DNA from: Methanosarcina sp. DH2
GTDB taxonomy: Archaea; Halobacteriota; Methanosarcinia; Methanosarcinales; Methanosarcinaceae
DNA length: 56,973 nt
Assembly: GCF_020804225.1 (NCBI RefSeq)
Contig: NZ_WJBI01000002.1
Location: forward strand, 392,342 to 449,314
Reading direction: 5' to 3'
The notes under the pieces were generated by a model. The model did not search any database and had not been told where the DNA came from. It worked only from the letters and a program-made list of their open reading frames with translations. Both the position numbers and the translations under genes were made by a program. Of this stretch, positions 9,914 to 56,973 are shown one piece after another (the first letter of the stretch is position 1; each line of letters begins with the position of its first letter).

Positions 9914-12442
9914 TCATCCTTTATACGGGCTTTCAAGGACTTCTCTTATTCTGGCTGCTGTTTTAGGTCCTATTAGCTTTACGCCTTTCAATTCTTCGGT
10001 ATCAGCTCGCATAATAGCTTCTACCGAGCCGAAGTGCAAAAGGAGATTTCTTGCAGCTTTTGGCCCTATATTCGAAATAGAAGAAATAAGGTATTCCTGC
10101 TGCTCTGCAAGAGTGCTGGCAGATTTCTTCCCGTGAGGATTGATTTCACGTTTGTTCTCTGTCTGCTCACGCTTTGCAAGCACCTTTAAAATAGAAGCTG
10201 TTTCTTCCTCATCCCGGGAATATAGAATGGATACTCCAAAATCAATTGCAATGGAAACCAGAGAGCCGTAAATAGCGTTTGGGTTGATCTGCCTGGAAGT
10301 GAAGAGATCTTCCCCTTCAATTATCAGGACTGGTTTTTCGTATACTCTTGCAAGATCTGACAGCTGGGCAAAAAGGTTGCGTTTTCCGTCGATCAGAGAA
10401 CTTGCAAAGTCATCCGTACGCTTTCTTTCCACTGCAAGGCGATCACTTACAACGTAGTCCCCTACTTCGAGAGCCACAAAGCTGAGTTCCATACCGAGCC
10501 TGTCCAGGGTTTTTGCAACTCCACATTTTGTCTCCCTGTGGTCGATTACTATTCTGAGTGACTTTTTTATGCTTTCTCCTGATGCGGCTCCGAAATCTAC
10601 AAGGGTTTTTTGCCTTTCTTTTACGTTTCCATCTGTTTCTTCGTTTCCATCTTTCTTTCCATTCTCATCTGAGCTTCTTTCCAGGTTTATGTTTTTATCT
10701 TCTTCCCTTTCATCTCCATTTTTCCTGGAATCTGCAAGACTGTTGTTGTCGCCATCCTCATTTTCGTCTCTATTTTCGCTTCCTATTTCCTTCAGTCCTA
10801 TTTCTTGTACTTCTAACTTCAGTTCTGAAATACAGGATAAGCCTTCGAAATCCGAAAGTTCTGAACTTTTCTTTGGAGCCTTTGGGGTAAGGATAGCCTC
10901 AAGCCCGTGCATACTGTTCAGCATCCTTTTTTCCTTACTTTTGCTGCTCCAGTAATAAGCTTCGTCCCGCGTGCCTTTTGTCACAAGCACAATTACTCTG
11001 CCTTTTTGCTGCCTGCCTGTCCTGCCCTTACGCTGGATGCTGCGAATTTCCGAGGGGATAGGTTCGTAAAATAGCACCATGTCCGTAGAAGGAATATCAA
11101 GCCCTTCTTCAGCAACTGAAGTGGCTACGAGGACATTATATTCTCCTGCCCTGAATTTGTCAAGGATTTCTGCCTGCTGCTTCTGCGTAAGTCCTTTGTC
11201 TTTATGACGCGAACCCTGCCCCACAAAACGAGTAGGAACAATTCCCGGAGCGTCAGAAAGGGCGTTTGCCACTATCTCTGCAGTATCCCTGTAGTTAGTA
11301 AACACAATTACCCGGGAATCAGGGTTTTCTTCTAACTGTTCGGATACTATTTTCCTTGCAAGTTCGAGTTTAGGGTGCTCGATATCACATTCTTTTACCC
11401 TGTACAGGGCTTTTCTCATGTAAAGGTCATCCATGAGCCTTTTTGCAGCCTTACTTGCGCTGTTTGAAGAAGCCTCTGCATCCAGTTTTTCCAGGTACTT
11501 TCTTAAAGTCTCAAGCCCCTGCGTCTCCACCATTTCCACAGCATGGTTCACCTTCATCATCTCAGCAACCACAGACATGGCAGAAAAAATTGCAGGGTCT
11601 CCACCCATACGAATTTCACCCTGGAGTTGTTTCTGGAGAAGCAGGAGGTCTTTTTTGGAGATGTATTTTCCACTGCCTGCAGAAAAGCCCAGTTTTCTTA
11701 TGGTTCCTAGCCGATCATTGAAGATCTTTTCCAGATAGCTACGAATTTCAGCCATTTCGGCAGGAAGCAGGACCTGAAGCCATTCTATTTCTTTTTCCTG
11801 CACATAAGGGCGAACATCCCTGTCTTTCTCTGTTTTTACAGCTACGTTTTCAACATGTAAAGCCTGACATACCTCAGAGATTTTCTCGTCTGAGCTGCCC
11901 GGACTTGCAGTAATTCCCAGTACGTGAGGATTTTTGGCACTCTCAAAATACTTTTCCGCAATAAAGGTATAAGCATAATTTCCAACTGCCCGGTGGGCTT
12001 CATCAAAGGTTATGTGGCTTACATCCTCAAGGCTGATCCGTTTCGTAAGAAGGTCGTTTTCGATAACCTGGGGTGTGGATACTATCAATTTTCCCTGTGC
12101 CCAGAGCTTTTCCCGCTCAGCAGGGGCAATGCTGCCTGTAAAAGCCAGAATTTCTTCTTCGGGGAGGGTCATTACCTTTTTAAAAAAAGCTGCATGCTGG
12201 TCTACAAGAGGTTTTGTAGGAGAAAGTATCAGAGCTTTTCCTCCGAAACGCTGGAGTCGGGATGCAATCACAAAAAGAGCTATAATGGTTTTTCCAAGCC
12301 CCGTGGGAAGCACAACCAGGCTTGACCCTTCAAGGGCTTTTCCTGCAAGGTTGAGCTGGTAAAGCCTCTGCTCAACTGTATCGGGCTTTATCAGTGGATG
12401 CTTCATGCATGCCTGTTTCTCAGGAAAAAGACTTTTGTTCAT
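9914..12442 (-). CDS. hef: Hef helicase/nuclease (FANCM-XPF type)
   Basis: Processes stalled replication forks and branched DNA. Residues ~20-500 form an SF2 helicase: Walker A LPTGLGKT, motif II FDEAH, motif III GITASPG, and motif VI region QRKGRTGR. Residues ~630-770 form an XPF-family nuclease with the intact signature GDYVVSDRLAVERKRTDDF (GDxn-ERKx3D). A tandem helix-hairpin-helix follows near residues 785-838 (SNIGPKAARNLL and VKLIGPKTAARI). The helicase and nuclease parts are joined by a ~70-residue stretch of almost only Asp, Glu, Asn, Lys, Ser and Gly. In archaea Hef acts with PCNA, which is encoded elsewhere in this window. The start is uncertain: a Met at residue 13 is also possible. 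Confidence 0.96.
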   Translation of the reverse strand: MNKSLFPEKQACMKHPLIKPDTVEQRLYQLNLAGKALEGSSLVVLPTGLGKTIIALFVIASRLQRFGGKALILSPTKPLVDQHAAFFKKVMTLPEEEILAFTGSIAPAEREKLWAQGKLIVSTPQVIENDLLTKRISLEDVSHITFDEAHRAVGNYAYTFIAEKYFESAKNPHVLGITASPGSSDEKISEVCQALHVENVAVKTEKDRDVRPYVQEKEIEWLQVLLPAEMAEIRSYLEKIFNDRLGTIRKLGFSAGSGKYISKKDLLLLQKQLQGEIRMGGDPAIFSAMSVVAEMMKVNHAVEMVETQGLETLRKYLEKLDAEASSNSASKAAKRLMDDLYMRKALYRVKECDIEHPKLELARKIVSEQLEENPDSRVIVFTNYRDTAEIVANALSDAPGIVPTRFVGQGSRHKDKGLTQKQQAEILDKFRAGEYNVLVATSVAEEGLDIPSTDMVLFYEPIPSEIRSIQRKGRTGRQQKGRVIVLVTKGTRDEAYYWSSKSKEKRMLNSMHGLEAILTPKAPKKSSELSDFEGLSCISELKLEVQEIGLKEIGSENRDENEDGDNNSLADSRKNGDEREEDKNINLERSSDENGKKDGNEETDGNVKERQKTLVDFGAASGESIKKSLRIVIDHRETKCGVAKTLDRLGMELSFVALEVGDYVVSDRLAVERKRTDDFASSLIDGKRNLFAQLSDLARVYEKPVLIIEGEDLFTSRQINPNAIYGSLVSIAIDFGVSILYSRDEEETASILKVLAKREQTENKREINPHGKKSASTLAEQQEYLISSISNIGPKAARNLLLHFGSVEAIMRADTEELKGVKLIGPKTAARIREVLESPYKG

Positions 12443-35092: not shown

Positions 35093-35408
35093 GAGGCTAG
35101 ATAATATATGCAGACCTTAAAGCCGTTCCGGTCATGCATACTTTCGTAAATAAACCACCACGAAATACATAAATTTATATTTTCAAGACGAAATAATAAA
35201 TTATTTATATTTTGTATCTTTTAACCAGTAATTGTCTGGAAGTGCTAATTTCGTAATAATGTAAATAAAAAACTGGTTACTACCTGATTTGAAAGAGATA
35301 TGTAGATCTAACTCTCAGGAACCTCACGAACCTTCAGATAATTAATCCTGCAGATGGAAATTTCTTCGGATCCGGCCACAACTTTAAAAAAATAGATGGA
35401 GGATTTTG
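35093..35408. other. Divergent promoter region, PUA gene / first output-domain regulator
   Basis: AT-rich, no gene. TATA-like TTTATATTTTC and TTATTTATATTTTG occur around 35170-35215. No clear operator palindrome for the neighbouring DNA-binding protein was found by eye. Confidence 0.4.
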
Positions 35409-36515
35409 TTGATTCGCAAAAACGTTTCTTTAGATGAAGCTCACCTCCAGAAACTCCAGCCTCTGCTGGAAAAAAACGGGGGAAATTTAAGTGCAGCAAT
35501 ACGGGAAGCCATTGACCTGGTTAGCCCTGACCCTGAAATCCATGGTACTTCAGATGAGACCTCTGAAAATATAAGGAAAAAAGAAAGTTTCCCAGAAACA
35601 AGGGAACGACTTCTCGTGAGCGGAGAATGTGTCATGATAAGCCAGCAAATGATGAAATGGCTTGTAAAAAGCAGTGCTGGCAAGCTTATTGATGAAGATC
35701 TTGTCCATGAGATTATAAATCCGTACCTGATTACCACAGTTTCTGAGCTGGAAGAGTACTTTAACTACATCAGTAAACAGATGGGGTGGAAAATTAATGT
35801 CTCGTGTTCCTGTAAAGAAAGCCTTCAAAAAGAGTATGCAACTATGGATTTCACTGGCGGGGACAGAGACCTTCGTGAGTTTCTTGTAGAAGCCGTCTGC
35901 ATTTTCCTCTCGCGCTGGATGGATATGGATGCAGAGGCGCTTCATCGAAAATCCAATTCAATTACCGTATACCTGAAAAGTTTTGTTCGGCATGAACTGC
36001 AGAAAACAGCTCCTGGGGTGAGGAAACATTTCGGTTCCAGAGACATCCTGTACAGGGAAATTGAGAGAAAATCCGCTTTCTGGATAACGCTTGCGGAACT
36101 CTATCTAAAGTTCAATTACCAGAGGGTAAATCTGGACAAGAGTCTTTTTGAAGCTCTGTTAGCAGGAAAGCTTCCTGATATAACAAAATATTTTGAGATT
36201 AAAGCTGACCGCTCACTCCGTGAGATCCCTCTTTCGGAACTGCTTCCCCTTTTTAAATACCTTGTAGTTGCCTCACAGCTTGTGAGTGATGTGGAAATAT
36301 ATCCCGAGAAAGGAAAAGAGTACATCAAAATCAGGCACGACTATTCTGATGAGAGTGTGGTTTTAAAACTGATCCAGCTGTTTTCCAATTTATTTGAGGC
36401 TGGCCTGCACAGGTTCACTGTAAATTCTGTCTCCGAGCTCATAATATTTGATTTTTCTCTTCCTAACACTTCAATACGAGGCGCTGTAAAAGTCTCCCCG
36501 CGTCTGGATTTTTAA
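35409..36515 (+). CDS. RHH-type protein with methanogen output domain, paralogue 1
   Basis: A 368-residue protein. The first ~45 residues (LIRKNVSLDEAHLQKLQPLL … GNLSAAIREAIDL) resemble a ribbon-helix-helix DNA-binding fold: a beta strand, then two helices with the SAAIREAI end. The remaining ~300 residues match a domain known from Methanosarcina as a methanogen output domain (MetOD1-like; name from memory). Conserved points shared with the two following paralogues are INPYxI, GWKI, HRKSNSI, KxFG, ExxxKxxFW, and YQRxNLDKSLFEA. Probably a one-component regulator. The start is TTG, with GGAGG six bases upstream; a preceding TTG is too close to that site. Confidence 0.7.
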   Translation: MIRKNVSLDEAHLQKLQPLLEKNGGNLSAAIREAIDLVSPDPEIHGTSDETSENIRKKESFPETRERLLVSGECVMISQQMMKWLVKSSAGKLIDEDLVHEIINPYLITTVSELEEYFNYISKQMGWKINVSCSCKESLQKEYATMDFTGGDRDLREFLVEAVCIFLSRWMDMDAEALHRKSNSITVYLKSFVRHELQKTAPGVRKHFGSRDILYREIERKSAFWITLAELYLKFNYQRVNLDKSLFEALLAGKLPDITKYFEIKADRSLREIPLSELLPLFKYLVVASQLVSDVEIYPEKGKEYIKIRHDYSDESVVLKLIQLFSNLFEAGLHRFTVNSVSELIIFDFSLPNTSIRGAVKVSPRLDF

Positions 36516-36642
36516 TAAAAATAACAACTTTTATATATCTGCGCTGATCCTGTAATCTTGTTTATGGTCTTCAAGTTTATACTGTGCCTGCACTGCCAGG
36601 CTGTTTGCTGAATAACAATTTGTATAAAACAGGGGATAACCT

Positions 36643-37692
36643 TTGATTCGCAAAAACGTTTCTATGGAAGATGAATATCTTCAGAAACTGCAGCCCTTCC
36701 TGGATAAAAATAACGGGAATCTGAGTGCTGCAATAAGGGATGCAATAGAACTCGCAGATGCTGCCCTTCAGGGTCACGAGTCCGTAGAAGGTGCCCTGGA
36801 ACATTTTACGCAGAGTTCAACAAAGTACCCTGAAATCCGAAACAGTTTGATAGAAAGCGGAGAATGCATATTGATTAGCCAGCTTTCATTCAGGTGGCTT
36901 ATTGAAAATACCGATGGGATACTCGTAGACGATGAACTGGTAAGTGAACTTTTTAACCCATATAAGATAAAGAACGTTTCAGACCTTCTCGAGTATATAA
37001 ATGCACGCAGTCGGAATATGGGATGGGGAATTGAAGTTTCCGTCAGTAGCTAGGAGGATAAGACCGAGGTAATAGTGCTTGAAAACGGGGACCCAAATTT
37101 AAGAGCTTATCTTGCTGAGGCAGTCTCTATCTTTCTCGGTCACTACCTTAACCTTGATATTCCCTTTGTCCATCGGAAATCTAATTCAATCCGCATCTTC
37201 CTTATGAAACACAGATTCGACATGGACGTTCCTCCAGGGATCAGGAAGAACTTTGGAACTCTTGACTATACTTTTAAAGAAATTAAAAGCAAATCTGAAT
37301 TCTGGATCTCTCTGGTGGAAAGATACAGGCTGCACAGGTATCAACGGATAAATCTAAACAGGGATGTCTTTGAAACATTTCTTTCCGGAAAGATCCCTGA
37401 TGTGACAAGCTTTTTTGAAGTGTCTGCAGGCAAGCCTATTAAGGAAATTCCACTTTGCGAAATGTTTGCTATTTGCAAAAAATTAATTTTTGTCACCCAG
37501 CTTGCAAATGATATTGAAAGGACAGTTGAGAAGGGAAAAATAAATATAAAAATTCGACATCAATTCTCCGAAGAAATTGCTATTGAGAAACTTGTAGAGC
37601 TTATCTCAAAGCTATTCCAAGCTGCAGGTTATGTATTTGAGGTCAGGACCGTATCAAATCTTATTATTATCGAGTTTGCAGACATATGTTAA
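36643..37692 (+). CDS. RHH/output-domain paralogue 2 with in-frame TAG (possible pyrrolysine)
   Basis: The reading frame is colinear with both flanking paralogues over its whole length (RHH start MIRKNVSMED…GNLSAAIRDAIEL; later FVHRKSNSI, KNFGTLDYTFKEI, YQRINLNRDVFETFL). It is interrupted only by TAG at codon 137 (37051-37053), in a variable loop after GWGIEVSVSS. No other stop or frameshift follows for 213 codons. In Methanosarcina UAG can be read as pyrrolysine, giving a 349-residue protein. The alternatives are a nonsense mutation, or two separate polypeptides: a GTG at 37075 has GAGGT four bases upstream and AGGAGG lies right after the TAG. The start is TTG behind AGGGGATAACCT. Confidence 0.65.
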
Positions 37693-38054
37693 AGTCTATC
37701 TTTCCCGTAGCCGCTAATATTGATACGTTAAATGCTAATTCCTTAGCTTCTTCACTACTGATTCTTTATTTTTTTCCTGTTCTCTCAACACAACAACTAC
37801 TCAAATGAATTATAGGTGTAAATGAACTTTTCACCTTTTATTTTTCAATTATTTTTGTTTTGCTTGTCTCTGTTTTTTATTTTCTTCCCTTTATGCCTTA
37901 AATTCTTGAATATAAATCTTCGGTTCTACTCTCTAGCAAAAAAATTAATAAGTATGAACTACAATTTAATACTTGTTTATAAGTATGAAAAAGTCTGGAG
38001 GCTAGGAAAACTCAACCCTCCTGTACTTTCAAAAAGGGAGAAGAGGATGTCCGC
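37693..38054. other. Gap between paralogues 2 and 3
   Basis: T-rich, with a 78-codon frame at 37822-38058 whose product is Phe/Leu-rich and ends inside the next gene's start, so I do not call it. TATA-like TAATACTTGTTTATAAG near 37965-37985 may drive paralogue 3. Confidence 0.45.
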
Positions 38055-39188
38055 TTGATAGTCCGAAAAAACATCTCGATTGATCAATGCTACATAGATA
38101 AATTAAAGCCCTTTCTGGATAAAAACAATGGAAATTTAAGTGCCGCGATAAGGGACTCTATCGAAACTGCCTCTCAGGCTATTAATGGAGAAAAGAGTGA
38201 AAAAGAAGGACAAAACTCAAGCCAAGCTTTTAAAAACGCAGAATCACGTAACAAAATGGTTGAAGACGAAGAATTTCTACTTATCCATCATACTATGCTT
38301 GAGTGGTTTATCAGAAAAACCTCAGGTTTGCTTATTGAAGAATCGACCGTATACGAGTTAATAAATCCCTATTCTATTAAAAAAATTCCTGATTTTGTTA
38401 GTTACGTAAATGCACTCAATGAGAGGATTGGCTGGAAAATTAAAGTTGGCGCAGAGTGCATAGGAAGCCCGGAACCGGAATCTGTAATTCTTACTCTTTC
38501 AAATGGCAACCCTTGCTTTAGAGGAATAATTGCTCACAGCCTTGCCCTCTACCTGGCAAAACAGATGAAACTGGATGTACAGGGGCTATTCAGCAGGTCA
38601 AATGTGACTAAAGTCTATCTTAAAAGGTTTGAGTTTCTTAATTACGAAAAGGTTCCTAAGGGACTTGAAGAACACTTCGGTCAGATGGATGGAACTTTTA
38701 AAGAGATCCAGAGGAAACCGGAATTCTGGAAAAACCTTGTCAAGATCTACAAACAGCAGAACTATCAGCGGCTCAGCATGAACAAAAAAGTTTTCGAAGC
38801 TTTTGTTTCCGGAAATCTACCTTCAGTTGACGATATGACAAGAGAATTCGAATTATTTGCAGGCAAACCTTCTGAAGCCTTCACCCTTGCAGAGCACATA
38901 ATGGTTTTCAAAGAGCTTTACCTTATTGACAGTATAGGAACAGAAATTGAAGTCTGTACCGATAAAGGCAATGAATACGTGAGATTAATTCACGATTATT
39001 CCGATAGGAGGGTATGTGAACGCGTTACATCTTATTATTCAAGTATTTTCAAATGTATTGGTCATCCATTTACAGTCACTTCCAGTCCCCATATGATTGT
39101 TTTCGAATTCGGAAAGAACATGGAGATCAGCTGCATTTCCGAATCAGGATTGGCAGGCACGGAATCTGAGCCCTCCTTTACTCCATGA
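38055..39188 (+). CDS. RHH-type protein with methanogen output domain, paralogue 3
   Basis: 377 residues with the same architecture as the two preceding genes: an N-terminal ribbon-helix-helix-like segment (MIVRKNISID … GNLSAAIRDSIE), a short Glu/Lys/Ser linker, then the output domain (INPYSIKKI, ERIGWKIKVGAEC, EEHFGQMDGTFKEI, YQRLSMNKKVFEAF). Its start is again TTG, aligned exactly with the TTG starts of the other two, with AGAGGA upstream. The ligand or signal sensed is unknown. The gene triplication without operon partners suggests recent local expansion. Confidence 0.7.
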   Translation: MIVRKNISIDQCYIDKLKPFLDKNNGNLSAAIRDSIETASQAINGEKSEKEGQNSSQAFKNAESRNKMVEDEEFLLIHHTMLEWFIRKTSGLLIEESTVYELINPYSIKKIPDFVSYVNALNERIGWKIKVGAECIGSPEPESVILTLSNGNPCFRGIIAHSLALYLAKQMKLDVQGLFSRSNVTKVYLKRFEFLNYEKVPKGLEEHFGQMDGTFKEIQRKPEFWKNLVKIYKQQNYQRLSMNKKVFEAFVSGNLPSVDDMTREFELFAGKPSEAFTLAEHIMVFKELYLIDSIGTEIEVCTDKGNEYVRLIHDYSDRRVCERVTSYYSSIFKCIGHPFTVTSSPHMIVFEFGKNMEISCISESGLAGTESEPSFTP

Positions 39189-39985: not shown

Positions 39986-40288
39986 TTATTTTATCTTTTT
40001 TACATCTTTATCTTTTTTGTACTTCTCTCTAAGTTTCTTGATCTCCTCTGATTCATTTTTCATCCTGATTACAAAGAGGCCGAAGCAGGGCTTTATGAAT
40101 TGGAATAGAATGGCATCTCCTGAAAAACCAACAGGGATAGCTGTGCCCAGAAGGAAAATGCCTTTTACGTTGTACCCTCCGGGTACCAGGTACACCTCTT
40201 CCGAATGTTCCTTAATAAGGTTTTCACACTCTTTGAGGGTTGCGTTTTTCAGGAGGATCTCATAGTCAAACTCGCTTAAGCATACCAT
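39986..40288 (-). CDS. DUF1894 protein, second copy
   Basis: A 100-residue methanogen-specific protein similar to the one at 41355-41729: both have YEILL-K-T, EVYxVxPGY, a GI(x)PxAxGxxGxAxxF strand and KPCFG/KPCYGTF with one conserved Cys. This copy ends in a Lys/Glu/Asp-rich helix. AAGGT precedes the ATG. DUF1894 is found only in methanogens and its function is not established. It faces the DUF1890-DUF1894 pair from the opposite strand across a 0.6-kb promoter region. Confidence 0.8.
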   Translation of the reverse strand: MVCLSEFDYEILLKNATLKECENLIKEHSEEVYLVPGGYNVKGIFLLGTAIPVGFSGDAILFQFIKPCFGLFVIRMKNESEEIKKLREKYKKDKDVKKIK

Positions 40289-40899: not shown

Positions 40900-41358
40900 A
40901 TGACCGGCGCAAAAGTACTTCTCATGATGGGATGTCCGGAGGTCCCAATTCAAACCAGCATTGCTCTGTATCTTTCCCATAAGCTGACTAAATTGGGATT
41001 CGATGTAACCGTTGCCGGGACAGGTGCAGCAACCCAGCTTTTGAAGGTATCTGATTCCGACGGCTATTATGCAAAAAAGCTGGTTAATCTCGACAATACT
41101 CTGGAGGACATTATTGAGAAAAGAGCGGATTTCGACATCTGTTTCGCCTTTATGCATAACGATGCCGGAATGACCTATGCTGCGACTATGAGCGCTATTT
41201 CTCAGTCCAGGCTGTACTCCATAGTCTTCGGCAGGAACGCTGAGGCTCTGGCCGAAACCATCGAGTTCGATGGCGAAAAGATCATCTCAACTGACGTTCA
41301 CAACCCTGTTCGTCTCAAGAACAAGCTGGACAAAGTGGTGGAGGAGATAGTCAAATGA
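40900..41358 (+). CDS. DUF1890 protein (methanogen-specific)
   Basis: A 152-residue cytoplasmic protein with a Rossmann-like pattern (AKVLLMMGCPEVPIQTSIAL, FDVTVAGTGAATQLL, FDICFAFMHNDAGMTYAATM). DUF1890 occurs only in methanogens and is normally next to DUF1894. The Cys in MMGCPE and the His-Asn-Asp stretch could bind a ligand. GAGATGAAA precedes the ATG. The stop overlaps the DUF1894 start (ATGA), so translation is coupled and a complex of the two is plausible. Their biochemical role is unknown to me. Confidence 0.85.
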   Translation: MTGAKVLLMMGCPEVPIQTSIALYLSHKLTKLGFDVTVAGTGAATQLLKVSDSDGYYAKKLVNLDNTLEDIIEKRADFDICFAFMHNDAGMTYAATMSAISQSRLYSIVFGRNAEALAETIEFDGEKIISTDVHNPVRLKNKLDKVVEEIVK

Positions 41359-41729
41359 GCTGCATTGAACAGATGAAGTACGAGATCCTCCTGGATAAGA
41401 CGACCTACAAGGCTGCCAGAGAGTATATTGAGAAAAACTCGGATGAGGTTTACTATGTATCCCCCGGCTACAAGATCTTCAAGGACTACCACATAATAGG
41501 AGTGCCTCCCATTGCTCTAGGGGCTAAAGGCAACGCTTTGATCTTCACCTACACAAAGCCTTGCTATGGAACTTTTGTCCTGACCATAGACAACGAGGAC
41601 AGCACAAAGGAGATAGATCGGGTCCGGGAGATGGAGAATGAAAAAGTAATTGCCTCATTGAAGAAGGGCAAGACTCCTGAAAGCTCAAAGGCATCATCGA
41701 CCAGCTATCAGGATATGTGGAAAAAATGA
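41355..41729 (+). CDS. DUF1894 protein (methanogen-specific)
   Basis: 124 residues, overlapping the DUF1890 stop by four bases. The sequence has KYEILLDKTTY, DEVYYVSPGYKIFKDYHIIGVPP, ALGAKGNALIFTYTKPCYGTFVLTI and a polar, Ser/Lys-rich tail ending DMWKK. It has a paralogue on the opposite strand at 39986-40288. Function unknown; restriction to methanogens suggests a role close to methanogenesis. Confidence 0.85.
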   Translation: MSCIEQMKYEILLDKTTYKAAREYIEKNSDEVYYVSPGYKIFKDYHIIGVPPIALGAKGNALIFTYTKPCYGTFVLTIDNEDSTKEIDRVREMENEKVIASLKKGKTPESSKASSTSYQDMWKK

Positions 41730-56925: not shown

Positions 56926-56973
56926 TTAGAATACAAGTCCCAGGTCTTCGAGCTTCTTTCTTGCTCCGTCATA
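56926..56973 (-). CDS. mtmB: Monomethylamine methyltransferase MtmB, C-terminal 15 residues (cut by window edge)
   Basis: The last 15 codons read YDGARKKLEDLGLVF followed by TAA, which matches from memory the C-terminus of MtmB. MtmB is the pyrrolysine-containing enzyme that passes the methyl group of monomethylamine to corrinoid protein MtmC. The rest of the gene, including its UAG codon, lies outside the window. The fragment is short, so the call rests on recognising this ending and on the adjacent permease. Confidence 0.6.
   Translation of the reverse strand, partial: YDGARKKLEDLGLVF

Follow-up and report, generated by a model that had tools for sequence, protein, structure and literature searches.

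In the methylamine methyltransferases MtmB, MtbB, and MttB, pyrrolysine (Pyl) is a catalytic and broadly conserved residue. In Methanosarcina, a genus where UAG is both a stop and a Pyl codon, the question arises how often other proteins take up this amino acid. In M. acetivorans, whose UAG has likewise been described as ambiguous (PMC2933860), the gene for the tRNA-His guanylyltransferase Thg1 carries an in-frame amber codon that, as described in the same source, arose in one species, can be read as Pyl, and is non-essential for activity (PMC2933860). The same species encodes the TetR-family protein MA2902, an annotated amber-containing regulator that was found by automated screens and has its amber codon in M. 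barkeri as well (PMC1914089, PMC3639795), so a Pyl-containing regulator is not without precedent.

We analyzed a window of 56,973 nucleotides from Methanosarcina sp. DH2 (assembly GCF_020804225.1, hereafter G000), in which the middle one of three tandem paralogs is interrupted by a single TAG (Table 1). No frameshift occurs along its reading frame, homologous coding sequence lies on either side of the TAG, and the upstream and downstream paralogs (46% and 38%, respectively) align with it end to end without a shift. Frame and alignment thus confirm what the initial annotation had described, a frame of 349 codons with a lone TAG and two paralogs in register. The genome contains four family members, and only the middle paralog has a stop; automatic annotation would break this gene into ORFs of 136 and 205 residues. 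Adjoining the regulator trio, at window positions 39986-40288 (-), 40900-41358 (+), and 41355-41729 (+), a DUF1890 gene is followed by a DUF1894 gene, with an extra DUF1894 copy on the opposite strand. Neither family has a known function; this neighborhood of the trio shows conserved synteny.

Table 1. Coordinates of the three paralogs, of features within the middle paralog, and of its remnants in other genomes. Positions refer to the window unless a locus is named.
Feature	Position	Strand	Remark
Upstream paralog	35406..36515	+	Free of in-frame stops; TTG 35409 is the probable start
Middle paralog, candidate Pyl gene	36643..37692	+	TTG start 36643 to TAA 37690-37692; 349 codons; single internal TAG
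Ribbon-helix-helix-like N-terminus (codons 1-42), probably DNA-binding	36643..36768	+	Model (low confidence) and weak RHH_1 similarity
First beta-beta-alpha-beta-beta domain, codons 130-189	37030..37209	+	AlphaFold2 models; TAG at turn of first hairpin
In-frame TAG, codon 137, proposed Pyl codon	37051..37053	+	Commonest codon in relatives is TGG
Nearest internal GTG, possible restart after TAG	37075..37077	+	Place differs in G007
Second beta-beta-alpha-beta-beta domain, codons 290-345	37510..37677	+	AlphaFold2 models
Downstream paralog	38055..39188	+	No in-frame stop
Remnant of middle paralog (G015)	L069:13824-15008
Remnant of middle paralog (G002)	L070 near 10080-10280
Remnant of middle paralog (G017)	L026:781-1078
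Remnant of middle paralog (G018)	L032:903-1082

The host carries pylT, pylS, and the Pyl biosynthesis genes pylB, pylC, and pylD; the five cluster some 30 kb downstream of the middle paralog, on the contig that also bears it. TAG terminates 12 of 248 long ORFs (about 5%) along 449 kb, and UAG is ambiguous in this genome, being both a stop and a Pyl codon. An mtmB gene with an in-frame TAG is found at the window's end, and an mtbB gene with one lies farther up the same contig. The mtbB gene (G000:C26:345667-347070 (+), L093; named from its sequence) has the longest TAG extension of a simple scan and provided a positive control. The mtmB copy (G000:C26:449276-450623, L067; from window position 56935) contains ambiguous bases and an apparent frameshift, defects that probably arose when mtmB copies were collapsed during assembly. 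Elsewhere on the contig, a 169-residue ORF (G000:C26:66549-67058 (-), L079) terminates at a TAG behind which 102 further codons are open (starting MVVINISEVIDNYPNIASVF...), and may be another readthrough or split gene. In the 100 nt from the TAG of the middle paralog, the mRNA has no structure beyond that of shuffled sequences (z = -0.27) and no PYLIS-like signal. Because a cis element for UAG recoding is reported to have been neither found nor required (PMC8211752), the missing structure does not count against Pyl.

We surveyed the middle paralog in 31 genomes of the genus and read codon 137 in 17 orthologs, 14 from Methanosarcina and three from a neighboring genus. The gene is full-length in 14 of the 31 genomes and occupies the same genomic place wherever its flanks were read. 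TAG at exactly codon 137 recurs in one further genome, G007, a different species with a single-contig genome of 5.02 Mb, whose middle paralog is 84% identical as protein to that of G000. The remaining Methanosarcina orthologs have TGG (7), TTG (2), CGG, TGT, or TCC at this site and the three genomes of the neighboring genus have CTG, giving Trp, Leu, Arg, Cys, or Ser in the 15 orthologs without TAG. Conservation of the TAG in other Methanosarcina, a check proposed with the initial annotation, therefore holds for G007, whereas the 15 other orthologs have sense codons. A required Pyl residue would call for TAG in nearly all orthologs, as opposed to the 2 of 17 seen, and five different ordinary residues in the other 15 argue that the protein can function without Pyl and without termination at this site. 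G000, G007, G009, and G025 all lack the codon that follows it; since G009 and G025, which share this deletion, have TGG at the site, a TGG-to-TAG transition is the likely origin of the TAG. A separate scan of genome contigs retrieved four relatives, with TAG noted in none of them. The genome that we take to be M. acetivorans (G001) has TTG at codon 137, and screens of M. acetivorans, M. mazei, and M. barkeri would therefore not be expected to find the middle paralog. Our literature search, which covered openly accessible papers apart from recent work on ambiguous UAG decoding in Methanosarcina, returned no earlier report of it.

An open in-frame extension taken alone was rejected as evidence of readthrough because such extensions also follow TGA or TAA elsewhere, reaching about 600 codons within the 449 kb. 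Selection on the two parts of the gene was estimated with a codon model that assigns a separate omega to each branch, implemented in our own script and fitted 3' and 5' of the TAG. For the part that follows the TAG, the model gives omega values of 0.234 for the G000 branch and 0.153 for the G007 branch, with a background of 0.21; upstream, the corresponding values are 0.084 and 0.127, against 0.137, and the two intact paralogs give 0.14-0.35 on the same branches. Forcing omega = 1 on both TAG branches lowers lnL from -3650.16 to -3678.97 (2dlnL 57.6) and neutrality is rejected. The test averages over each branch and would miss a TAG that both species had acquired only very lately, by separate gains. 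With omega = 1 imposed on a single branch, lnL falls by at least 10.2 units for G000 and by at least 18.7 units for G007. Under neutrality of the 3' part along the whole branch, 3.4 and 4.1 further stops would be expected in G000 and G007, respectively; neither gene has any after its TAG (P of none 0.03 and 0.016). Purifying selection acts on the 3' part in both TAG lineages. Together with the same TAG in G007, this makes the in-frame TAG more than a chance occurrence.

The history of the codon depends on the tree. With 100% support, the topology obtained from nine flanking genes is (G000,(G007,(G009,G025))), and the neighboring genes jointly reject alternative trees strongly. G000 and G007 are not sisters on this tree, which implies two gains of the TAG, or one gain and one reversal. 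The middle gene itself does not reject a tree that joins G000 and G007 (AU p 0.44 versus 0.62). Three scenarios thus arise for the TAG: a single origin on a local tree joining both species, a single origin followed by reversal to TGG, or two origins. All three fit a position at which Trp and Pyl can replace each other. The flanking genes place G007 firmly with G009 and G025, a grouping to which the middle and downstream paralogs lend almost no support. This hints that the lineages of G000 and G007 recombined locally within 35406-39188.

AlphaFold2 models of the protein have a mean pLDDT of 72 overall and 81 for residues 97-349. They place two N-terminal helices at residues 10-22 and 27-42, with low confidence, ahead of the two beta-beta-alpha-beta-beta domains. 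The turn between predicted strands 130-136 and 142-148 begins with residue 137; it is variable in sequence, and its length differs by one residue. The initial annotation had put the TAG in a variable loop between two halves of the protein; the variability is borne out, but the position falls inside the predicted beta-hairpin of one domain. The DNA binding that the initial annotation ascribed to this protein would rest on a weak ribbon-helix-helix (RHH) resemblance. Of the 34 family members compared with Pfam RHH_1, 5 gave weak hits, the best with an E of 0.0068, and a paralog from the window scores 13.1 bits against the RHH profile, where the cut-off is 20.5. RACo_linker and similar weak Pfam matches were dropped as under cut-off. 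As to a possible ligand-binding fold of the V4R / TRAPP / H-NOX type, a structure search against the PDB yielded weak matches to TRAPPC3, BcsD, and H-NOX only, with no E below 0.001. From these features, the protein may be a DNA-binding, ligand-sensing regulator. Its family is spread throughout the order, including lineages without any known use of Pyl, so that the family overall has no tie to this residue.

A recent nonsense mutation in both species would leave a pseudogene, or a working N-terminal form of 136 residues, whose 3' part has yet to decay. The background for such a loss exists: ordinary termination at UAG does occur in this genome, the species tree allows two separate gains, and the middle paralog is absent or reduced to a remnant in many Methanosarcina species, which makes it a dispensable member of the trio. 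The remnants in G015, G002, G017, and G018, each with several stops and frameshifts, show how decay looks in this gene, and the TAG-bearing copies are quite different, with no second lesion in either and selection relaxed on neither branch. The chance that a second random nonsense mutation strikes this same site is about 0.02, and the stop would cut the predicted hairpin. We consider this explanation unlikely. A sequencing or assembly error might be suspected in a 37-contig draft whose adjacent mtmB has ambiguous bases and a broken frame, but the identical TAG in the independent single-contig genome of G007 excludes it in practice.

Two functional uses of termination can be envisaged. Ribosomes could stop at UAG and re-initiate at a nearby GTG, splitting the gene into two polypeptides; a GGAGG overlaps the TAG, and the GTG at 37075 in G000 is preceded by GAGGT 4 nt upstream. 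However, the candidate start is codon 145 in G000 and codon 143 in G007, relatives without TAG have much the same nucleotides because these encode conserved residues, and the break would land within the hairpin. Re-initiation is less likely than translation as Pyl, and we regard it as improbable. Similarly improbable is a switch, possibly evolved twice, in which the supply of charged tRNA-Pyl would determine how much of a short RHH form is made relative to the full-length regulator, so that the protein reports Pyl or methylamine status. If true, this would tie gene control to that status, with low charged tRNA-Pyl yielding the short RHH protein and high levels the full-length regulator. The probable DNA-binding part does precede the TAG, mtmB and pylTSBCD lie about 20-30 kb from the locus, and the TAG may have two origins on the species tree. 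Yet the closeness to the pyl and mtm genes was rejected as a functional link, being plain genus-wide synteny seen also in species without the TAG; no mRNA signal is present; and the protein family extends order-wide, into taxonomic families for which no use of Pyl is known. The initial annotation had proposed both a sensor of Pyl supply and a short/long switch. The sensor finds no support because most orthologs have an ordinary residue at the site, as well as for want of an mRNA signal, and the switch fares no better, given a stop that cuts a hairpin within a domain and 15 of 17 orthologs without TAG.

We infer that the UAG is most likely read through as Pyl. The view of this gene as a candidate Pyl protein is supported by the full set of pyl genes, the TAG in G007, and purifying selection downstream. 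Our preferred reading, to which we assign a probability of about 0.73, is that UAG is translated, almost certainly as Pyl, at a tolerant turn, reached by drift from TGG and with no special role. The gene would encode a probable regulator of ~349 residues with an RHH-like N-terminus and two beta-beta-alpha-beta-beta domains. At codon 137, TGG (Trp) would have given way to TAG in a lineage with its own supply of charged tRNA-Pyl, and ribosomes would read the UAG as Pyl often enough for the full-length protein to stay in use. The length-variable hairpin turn would accept many side chains, Pyl having been gained by drift without a special chemical role. Pyl at codon 137 is thus probably a real but neutral oddity, not a sensor.

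Compared with known systems, the middle paralog shares with MtmB, MtbB, and MttB the decoding machinery and an in-frame TAG, with copies of mtmB and mtbB on the same contig, but its proposed Pyl sits at a variable turn. It resembles CopG-like ribbon-helix-helix regulators in its N-terminal sequence and helix pattern, with weak RHH_1 similarity in some members, and departs from them in having no match above the Pfam cut-off and beta-beta-alpha-beta-beta domains without a confident PDB match. As in MA2902, the in-frame amber of a regulator gene is common to two Methanosarcina species, although the DNA-binding family is another one. As in Thg1 (PMC2933860), the amber was acquired in a gene for a non-methyltransferase; unlike Thg1, the middle paralog has its TAG in two species that are not sisters by their flanking genes, and encodes a probable regulator known from sequence. 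With TAG in two species and TGG or other sense codons in their kin, this regulator makes it possible to test cleanly whether tolerant positions are freely open to UAG by drift. The middle paralog is a further candidate of the kind represented by Thg1 and MA2902, and the evolutionary support for it is better than for an in-frame TAG seen in isolation.
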